The notes under the pieces: generated by a model
Told to the model about the DNA's origin: nothing
What the model saw: only the letters and a program-made list of their open reading frames with translations
Databases searched by the model: none
Made by a program: the position numbers and the translations under genes
DNA from: Candidatus Acidulodesulfobacterium acidiphilum
GTDB taxonomy: Bacteria; SZUA-79; Acidulodesulfobacterales; Acidulodesulfobacteraceae
Assembly: GCA_008534395.1 (NCBI GenBank)
Contig: SHMQ01000010.1
Coordinates: 14,976 to 78,975, forward strand
Length of the DNA: 64,000 bases
Reading direction: 5' to 3'
In this document: piece by piece, positions 13,901-16,733 of the stretch
Layout of the letters: every line of letters begins with the position of its first letter
How positions within the stretch are numbered: position 1 is the stretch's first letter

Positions 13901-16733
13901 CTGGAGTTTTTTTACCATCCTTCTGGTGAAGGATGGTAAGAATATTTCCCTGATTTATAAGGGATTGCGACCCTCCTGTAAAGTTAAAAATTACGTTCGT
14001 CATATATATTACGTAAGAATATTTCCCTGATTTATAAGGGATTGCGACAAATGATTCTAACTCTGCTAACTGTCTTTTTAATGCGGATGTAAGAATATTT
14101 CCCTGATTTATAAGGGATTGCGACTTGTTTGCTAACTCCTCCGATAAAGTCGGTTCTACTAACAAGTAAGAATATTTCCCTGATTTATAAGGGATTGCGA
14201 CATTGCCGTTGCACCGGTATTCGGTGCGACGACATCAGAACGGGTAAGAATATTTCCCTGATTTATAAGGGATTGCGACCTCCTATGTCCCGCGTCCGGG
14301 ATTAATTTAAGTTATATATAGGGTAAGAATATTTCCCTGATTTATAAGGGATTGCGACCCTATCCTCGCGTCCGAGGGTTAACTTAAGTTATATATAGGG
14401 TAAGAATATTTCCCTGATTTATAAGGGATTGCGACTTATAGCGAAGTTATTTATTTTTCTTTTTTGTCCGCATTGGTAAGAATATTTCCCTGATTTATAA
14501 GGGATTGCGACGGTTACCATTCCAGATTTGGGGGTTACCATTCCAGATTTGGGTAAGAATATTTCCCTGATTTATAAGGGATTGCGACTTAAAAACACAC
14601 CCTCTTATCTCCGGAAGCCCCTTTACCGTAAGAATATTTCCCTGATTTATAAGGGATTGCGACAGCTTAACTGCCCGTATGGGCAGTCTTTTTTCTTTTT
14701 GTCTTGTAAGAATATTTCCCTGATTTATAAGGGATTGCGACCTAAAAACTCGTTATATGCTTCCTTAAAATTCTCTATTCTGTAAGAATATTTCCCTGAT
14801 TTATAAGGGATTGCGACAGTTTCAAAAACATTTCACCTTCACTTTCACAGTGAGAATGTAAGAATATTTCCCTGATTTATAAGGGATTGCGACGGATCGC
14901 CTTAACATCCGCATTATTTAATAATTGCATAATGGGTAAGAATATTTCCCTGATTTATAAGGGATTGCGACGAGGTTTTGACAGTTAAACTTAATTTTTC
15001 TTCAATCTTTTTAGTAAGAATATTTCCCTGATTTATAAGGGATTGCGACCTTTGTTTCCTTTTTTTCCTTTTCCATTTTTACTCCTGTAAGAATATTTCC
15101 CTGATTTATAAGGGATTGCGACAAATCTCTTGAGAAGTCATTTTAAAGCCTCCCTTGATATTTTTGTAAGAATATTTCCCTGATTTATAAGGGATTGCGA
15201 CGACTCCACAATGAGTCATATATTTTTGCATTGTTATCGAGTAAGAATATTTCCCTGATTTATAAGGGATTGCGACATATAATACACTAACATTAGGATC
15301 TGCTTTTTTATGATTAGGTAAGAATATTTCCCTGATTTATAAGGGATTGCGACAATATATGATTTTTCATAGTGATAAACATTTTTAATTTTTGTAAGAA
15401 TATTTCCCTGATTTATAAGGGATTGCGACTTAATTTTTCTTCTGTCATTTCCATTTTTTCTTCTCCTTTGGTAAGAATATTTCCCTGATTTATAAGGGAT
15501 TGCGACAAACCTGCTTGCCCTTACTAAGATAATTTGCCATAGTGCTGTAAGAATATTTCCCTGATTTATAAGGGATTGCGACAATCATTAAACATTGTAA
15601 AAACCTGATCGCTTTGGATCCGTAAGAATATTTCCCTGATTTATAAGGGATTGCGACTGTCATCTTGCAAACGGATATAATGAATACCCGTTTTTTTTAC
15701 GTGTAAGAATATTTCCCTGATTTATAAGGGATTGCGACCTAAATATTCGGTATCGAAATACCTATCCAGAATATTTTCGGGTAAGAATATTTCCCTGATT
15801 TATAAGGGATTGCGACTTTTTTTTACTTTTTCGGAGTTGGGGGCCACTTTTATCCGTAAGAATATTTCCCTGATTTATAAGGGATTGCGACGAAAATGAA
15901 ATATTTTAAAATGAAATTTAAGATGATTTAATTGGTAAGAATATTTCCCTGATTTATAAGGGATTGCGACTTTACTTCTAAAGCCTTATTATAATTTTCA
16001 AATACATCGTAAGAATATTTCCCTGATTTATAAGGGATTGCGACACATAATACTGCTGGCACCCTTCGCAGGGTGCTTCCTGTAAGAATATTTCCCTGAT
16101 TTATAAGGGATTGCGACGACTGCCCATATGGGCAGCTTTTTTCATTTTCATTTTCCTGTAAGAATATTTCCCTGATTTATAAGGGATTGCGACTTCTTAT
16201 CCATAGAAAATCTATAGATAAGAGTAGCATTATGGTAAGAATATTTCCCTGATTTATAAGGGATTGCGACAAAACAAGGTATGTTCTGTTGCTTTTTGGG
16301 TTATATGTTACGTAAGAATATTTCCCTGATTTATAATGGATTGCGACTTATTTTTTTTCATTTTAATCTCCTTTGCGGCTTTCGCCGCTGTTTGAATATT
16401 TCCCTGATTTATAATGGATTACGACTGGGTTAAGTCCCGCAACGAGCGCAACCCTTACTTTTAGTATGAATATTTCCCGATTTATAATGGATTACGACCT
16501 TATTTCTACCGCTAAATTGAGCGGCAAAACTGTTTATCTCGTAGAATATTTCCAGATTTATTTGGGATTGCGACTAGGCTAACGCTAAATCTAACACTAC
16601 AAGCGCAAGCCCTGCAAAGTGTAAGAATATTTCCCTGATTTATAAGGGATTGTGAGCTCCTTTTTTCGGTGTCCGTAGAAAATAAAATTATTAACATGTA
16701 AGAATATTTCTTTGATTTATACTGGATTGCGAC
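10986..16733 (+). CRISPR. CRISPR array, 75 repeats and 74 spacers, type III-A
   Basis: The repeat is 36 bases, beginning GTAAGAATATTTCCCTG and ending AAGGGATTGCGAC, with a TCCCT/AGGGA stem. I counted 75 copies; spacers are 37-58 bases, mostly 39-44. Copies 1-69 are essentially identical. From copy 70 (16312) they decay, and copies 71-75 carry substitutions and 1-2 base deletions. The leader is therefore on the left and transcription is on the plus strand. The last eight bases, ATTGCGAC, match the 5' handle form of type III repeats such as those of Thermus, as I recall. Open frames across the array on either strand are artefacts of the repeat. Spacer content is unusual (see findings). Confidence 0.98.
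16426..16463 (+). other. Spacer 71 derived from 16S rRNA (1100 region)
   Basis: This spacer contains GTCCCGCAACGAGCGCAACC preceded by TGGGTTAA and followed by CTTACTTTTA. That is the universally conserved 16S rRNA segment near E. coli position 1100. It lies between two decayed repeats (16390-16425 and 16464-16498), in the oldest part of the array. It is in the same sense as rRNA, so its crRNA would not pair with 16S rRNA. Confidence 0.9.

Follow-up and report, generated by a model that had tools for sequence, protein, structure and literature searches.

A type III-A CRISPR spacer identical to the host's own 16S rRNA sequence, in a locus with a CAPP-RT adaptation module

Introduction

The CRISPR locus of Candidatus Acidulodesulfobacterium acidiphilum raises two questions: how did its array come to hold a spacer matching the host's own 16S rRNA, and why has this spacer been kept? 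Both were examined in a window of 64,000 nucleotides (contig SHMQ01000010.1, positions 14,976 to 78,975), the whole stretch of DNA that was analysed. Coordinates refer to this window and features lie on the + strand unless stated otherwise.

Results and Discussion

A type III-A locus with a CAPP-RT adaptation module

The array (10986–16733) consists of 75 repeats (GTAAGAATATTTCCCTGATTTATAAGGGATTGCGAC) and 74 spacers. It belongs to a type III-A locus encoding Cas10/Csm1 (3271–5955), Csm2 (5952–6458), a RAMP protein in the Csm3 position (6502–7203), Csm4 (7212–8186), and Csm5 (8217–9305). Cas10/Csm1, Csm2, Csm4, and Csm5 were identified by model matches (Cas10a/Csm1 for the first), and the protein in the Csm3 position matched the RAMP superfamily. 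The following gene encodes a Card1-like CARF nuclease as effector (9312–10721), and the interval between this gene and repeat 1 (10722–10985) is, from its position, the presumed leader. A second CARF protein, of the Cas_NE0113 / Csx1 family, is encoded at 19515–20660. Cas6 was absent from the genes scanned within the window.

The adaptation genes comprise cas1 (21550–22365), a Cas2-like open reading frame named by its own sequence and place (22645–22923), and a gene for a protein of 1018 residues (22958–26014) in which a reverse transcriptase (RT) harboring the YADD motif at residue 219 is fused to a CRISPR-associated primase-polymerase. This protein scored 315 bits against model NF040561 (CRISPR-associated primase-polymerase type A1; cut-off 200). 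With Cas1 encoded upstream and the Cas2-like open reading frame adjoining, these genes form a CAPP-RT module. The preliminary description of this DNA had recognized an adaptation module carrying a reverse transcriptase, correctly, and the RT can now be assigned to a CAPP-RT protein and not to an RT-Cas1 fusion, Cas1 and the RT protein being encoded by separate genes. Directly downstream of the CAPP-RT gene (26052–30799) lie genes for an ATPase (DUF234/ATPase_2), a NERD-domain protein kinase, and a second protein kinase, which are possible accessory defence genes. Elsewhere in the window, a SAM riboswitch (RF00162, 93.5 bits) is located on the - strand at 51466–51573.

Spacer 71 matches the host 16S gene over its full length

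Spacer 71 (16426–16463; TGGGTTAAGTCCCGCAACGAGCGCAACCCTTACTTTTA) is identical at 38 of 38 positions to the rRNA-sense strand of the only 16S gene detected in the host. The matching segment, which is contiguous in the gene, is located at 96251–96288 of contig C4 of the host genome G000 (L001:2597–2634). The E-value of 9.8e-13 (about 1e-12) obtained against the host's own genome led us to reject a chance match. Under a definition of self-derived spacers as those having a full-length chromosomal match outside mobile elements, spacer 71 belongs to this class. The match reaches 40 nucleotides if the next two bases, GT, are counted, these being also the first two bases of the repeat.

The same 38-mer is present without change in the 16S genes of four relatives (G006, G008, G011, and G028), one base differs in G029, and identity is limited to the first 32 positions in G002. 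The sequence alone thus points to the lineage and not to the individual cell. A different bacterium might have supplied the segment, as DNA or as rRNA, or it might have been brought in by a mobile element with a 16S fragment. However, no exact match to spacer 71 was present in the viral contig collection, and the phage collection provided partial matches only (92–95% identity, or 100% over just 31–32 nucleotides), which fall in 16S genes wherever the records are annotated. A phage record was therefore rejected as the source. Since the host itself offers an exact and simpler source, we consider a foreign origin improbable. The proposal that spacer 71 derives from 16S rRNA sequence was accordingly borne out: alignment to the host gene, which had been put forward as evidence of self-acquisition, gave the full 38-base match, and the better phage or plasmid match that would have competed with it was seen neither as an exact hit among viral contigs nor as more than a partial one among phages. 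Spacer 71 is a natural example of CRISPR self-sampling, of a kind already known.

Position of spacer 71 in the array

The array is probably transcribed from the + strand because its repeats end in ATTGCGAC, which resembles the ATTGAAAC crRNA handle (PMC8482600), and because the repeats decay at the right end. Spacer 71 is the fourth spacer counted from this degenerate (trailer) end. Its left neighbor, repeat 71 (16390–16425), differs from the consensus at 4 positions, and its right neighbor, repeat 72 (16464–16498), contains 3 substitutions and a 1-base deletion.

Preservation of the exact match while the adjacent repeats changed could be ascribed to domestication, the 16S crRNA having acquired a regulatory or protective role maintained by selection. 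Several of the repeat differences are nevertheless common to neighboring repeats: a T in the GGG block is found in repeats 70 to 72, and the A of TACGAC in repeats 71 and 72. Such shared changes are probably older than the insertion of spacer 71, or concurrent with it. Private changes amount to about one per repeat, so that the lack of any change in a 38-nucleotide spacer is unremarkable. The spacer is also absent from every other array collected. As it shows no sign of constraint, domestication was rejected, and we regard it as highly improbable. We regard spacer 71 as a real, old, and self-derived spacer.

Other features of the arrays were recorded. Solitary copies of the repeat occur in intergenic regions outside the array (2506–2547, 17984–18032, and 20666–20704), the first of which begins right behind a stop codon at 2505 and has 42 nucleotides identical to the array. 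Spacers 4 (11250–11291) and 43 (14280–14322) have 27 nucleotides in common, spacers 27 (13033–13090, the longest at 58 nucleotides) and 28 (13127–13166) have their first 17 nucleotides in common, and in spacer 46 (14512–14552) about 20 nucleotides are duplicated in tandem. Overlapping captures from a single source are the likely explanation. Beside the array of G019, a genome of the same genus, a sequence of about 28 bp (positions 5457–5487 of the region L035:3400–8900, near its end) has dozens of copies within the genus, frequently arranged in inverted pairs, and looks like an interspersed hairpin element.

Core self spacers are sense, mobile-element and start-site spacers antisense

Searches against their own genomes were performed with about 339 spacers from six genomes (G000, G001, G002, G004, G005, and G019). 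The resulting evidence base consists of three core self spacers from two genomes. In addition to spacer 71, two spacers of G019, which carries the same module, match the genes for NADPH-dependent glutamate synthase (gltA, 38/38) and pssA (39/39; named via the G013 homologue). All three matches are exact and in the sense orientation. In these searches, in which weak matches were examined in part, no core gene was seen to be clearly matched in antisense. The matches extend into the repeat by two nucleotides for 16S, three for gltA, and none for pssA, too few bases for any meaning to be read into the overrun. The arrays of relatives, which the preliminary description had pointed to as a place for other rRNA- or tRNA-derived spacers, contained no further rRNA spacer; for tRNA the answer is confined to arrays that were searched against their own genome.

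Spacers against genes of mobile elements or phage-like genes had the opposite orientation: 8/8 are antisense (identity of 87–100%, in some cases over part of the spacer). Spacer 59 (15507–15546) is exact (40/40) and antisense to the single-stranded DNA-binding protein (SSB) gene of an element integrated in the host genome (contig C2, roughly 50–93 kb; L007, L008, and L009), which also encodes an integrase, ParA, and RecT. Spacer 45 (14436–14475; 39/40) matches the same element next to the 3' end of one of its genes. One spacer of G019 and one of G005 match this element as well, all three being antisense; in the case of spacer 45 and of the spacer from G005, this assignment relies on the transcript extending beyond the stop codon. 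Spacer 62 is antisense to an unnamed gene of G017, an open reading frame that runs off the contig end and whose mobile origin is assumed. A phage replisome-organiser gene in G003 is matched antisense by a G019 spacer that occurs twice. In G014, the SSB and ERF genes are matched antisense by spacers from G007 and G005. Two different genomes have antisense spacers against SSB genes, each in a different element (L007:18178–18217 and L108:1279–1315). The presence in the host of spacers against its own C2 element suggests that a resident element is tolerated as long as it is silent. Scanning of viral contigs with the RecT of this element retrieved 12 distant contigs, 0 of which reached the threshold applied for a spacer match, and scanning with the phage replisome organiser retrieved no contigs.

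The analysis was extended to 431 spacers (422 unique) from related arrays of 11 genomes of the same family (the window array together with L024, L027, L030, L034, L035, and L069–L073). Among the unique spacers, a Shine-Dalgarno sequence followed by ATG was found antisense in 34 and sense in 0, against 3.2 and 0.8, respectively, expected from shuffled spacers. With a codon-usage classifier that is right for 77% of known genes, 25% of the spacers were called sense, which implies that about 4% are truly sense if all are coding. The split between 3 sense core self spacers and 42 antisense foreign or start-site spacers has a probability of about 7e-5 by chance, the spacers being taken as independent.

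These observations suggest the following scenario, in which we have high confidence. A 38-base segment of host 16S sequence would have been taken up by Cas1, Cas2, and CAPP-RT and integrated in the direction that yields an rRNA-sense crRNA. Under the proposed + strand transcription, this crRNA is not complementary to the host transcript. Because it could not pair with rRNA, the type III-A complex would not be triggered, leaving spacer 71 as a harmless passenger. Antisense self spacers presumably arise as well and are then purged. In Marinomonas mediterranea, negative selection acts on antisense self spacers while type III interference is active (PMC5576922), and the orientation of the core self spacers agrees with these data. 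Tolerance through sense orientation, which the preliminary description had offered as the reason for retention of spacer 71, is thus well supported by the 3/3 sense self spacers, the 34/34 antisense start-site spacers, and the 8/8 antisense mobile-element spacers. Alternatively, the degenerate flanking repeats may prevent spacer 71 from yielding a crRNA, which would by itself account for tolerance.

Translation starts and hairpins are enriched among the spacers

Start-site motifs are present in 8.1% of the spacers; equal-sized pieces of the integrated element have them in about 2% of cases (both strands together), and those of host DNA in 1.3%. For perfect stems of at least 8 bp, the corresponding figures are 9.5%, 1.3%, and 1.1%. 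These enrichments are provisional, the baselines being the integrated element and host DNA and not the source viruses. To reach this proportion of start-site spacers, a source genome would need a strong start site about every 284 bp, a density above that usual for phage genes. Either capture or selection favors these sites. If it is capture, the arrays indicate a substrate preference of CAPP-RT that can be tested.

Capture of spacer 71 from rRNA or from the rRNA gene

The captured molecule may have been rRNA, copied into cDNA, or DNA of the rRNA gene, and we hold the two to be about equally probable. In the first case, CAPP-RT would have copied an rRNA fragment before integration, and spacer 71 would be a fossil of information flow from RNA to DNA. 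The presence next to Cas1 and Cas2 of an RT with an intact YADD motif argues for this route and against DNA as the substrate, as does the origin of one of the three self spacers in rRNA genes, which represent about 0.2% of the genome: if the locus were not preferred, random sampling of DNA would give at least one in three with a probability of about 0.7%. The enrichment in translation starts and hairpins is also consistent with RNA. Furthermore, RT-Cas1 systems acquire spacers from RNA, and a Vibrio RT system was reported to have a strong strand preference at rRNA (PMC9048733). On the other hand, rRNA is represented by only 1 of the 431 spacers, two of the three self spacers come from ordinary protein genes, and we found no report in the literature of RNA acquisition by a CAPP-RT module. 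A text search for rRNA-derived spacers with a few set phrases returned none, a result that carries little weight. We know of no modified rRNA bases in this part of 16S, which could have marked an RNA origin.

Noncoded bases were present at neither end of spacer 71 and in none of the five closely matched spacers (5/5 clean), unlike many spacers acquired by RT-Cas1 (PMC11014452). Most of the latter were reported to have two or more noncoded bases, the wording being ambiguous as to whether all spacers or those with any such base are meant (PMC11014452). As noncoded bases are a tendency and not a strict criterion, their absence makes an RNA origin less probable without excluding it (PMC11014452). 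Clean junctions are compatible with the second case, direct capture by Cas1-Cas2 of a segment of the rRNA gene, for example as single-stranded DNA folded into a hairpin, this locus being heavily transcribed. Spacer 71 folds to -6.9 kcal/mol as RNA, and hairpins are enriched in spacers of the family. In addition, the RT-free type III systems of Streptococcus thermophilus and Staphylococcus epidermidis are enriched for spacers from rRNA and tRNA loci (PMC9048733). Because RT-free systems also take such loci, spacers from rRNA loci are not diagnostic of RNA (PMC9048733). The RNA and DNA routes each fall just short of an even chance in our estimation. The earlier reading of spacer 71 as a direct trace of RNA-to-spacer conversion is therefore not established, given the single rRNA spacer among 431, the clean junctions, and the similar behavior of RT-free systems; a single rRNA spacer is no proof of RNA capture, and we caution against interpreting it as such.

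A broader proposal would be that, in nature, CAPP-RT modules draw on cellular RNA and convert it by primase-polymerase-assisted reverse transcription, a route distinct from that of RT-Cas1. Arrays would then record translation starts, hairpins, and rRNA, only antisense copies being kept unless the source is the host. We advance this proposal tentatively and consider it rather unlikely.

Comparison with known systems

The module resembles the CAPP-RT type of the CAPP_A class (PMC8211822) in combining an RT and a primase-polymerase in one protein, whose gene neighbors those for Cas1 and Cas2 at a type III locus, a likeness of domain content and not of residue-by-residue order or C-terminal detail. 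RT-free type III systems of S. thermophilus and S. epidermidis (reviewed in PMC9048733) share with this family spacers from rRNA loci and a preference for hairpin-forming sequences, whereas an RT is present here and the rRNA spacer is a single case (n=1). The type III-B RT-Cas1 system of M. mediterranea (PMC5576922) also keeps sense self spacers, with interference active. In that system, Cas1 is the fusion partner of the RT and overexpression was used to drive acquisition, whereas natural arrays were analyzed here and the RT is fused to the primase-polymerase. The pattern measured in an engineered strain is seen here in natural arrays: self spacers last in the sense orientation, and useful spacers are antisense. 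As in the coding-strand bias described for natural type III arrays (PMC8482600), spacers are antisense to mRNA; the bias looks stronger here, at 34:0 on start-site motifs, measured without known source viruses.
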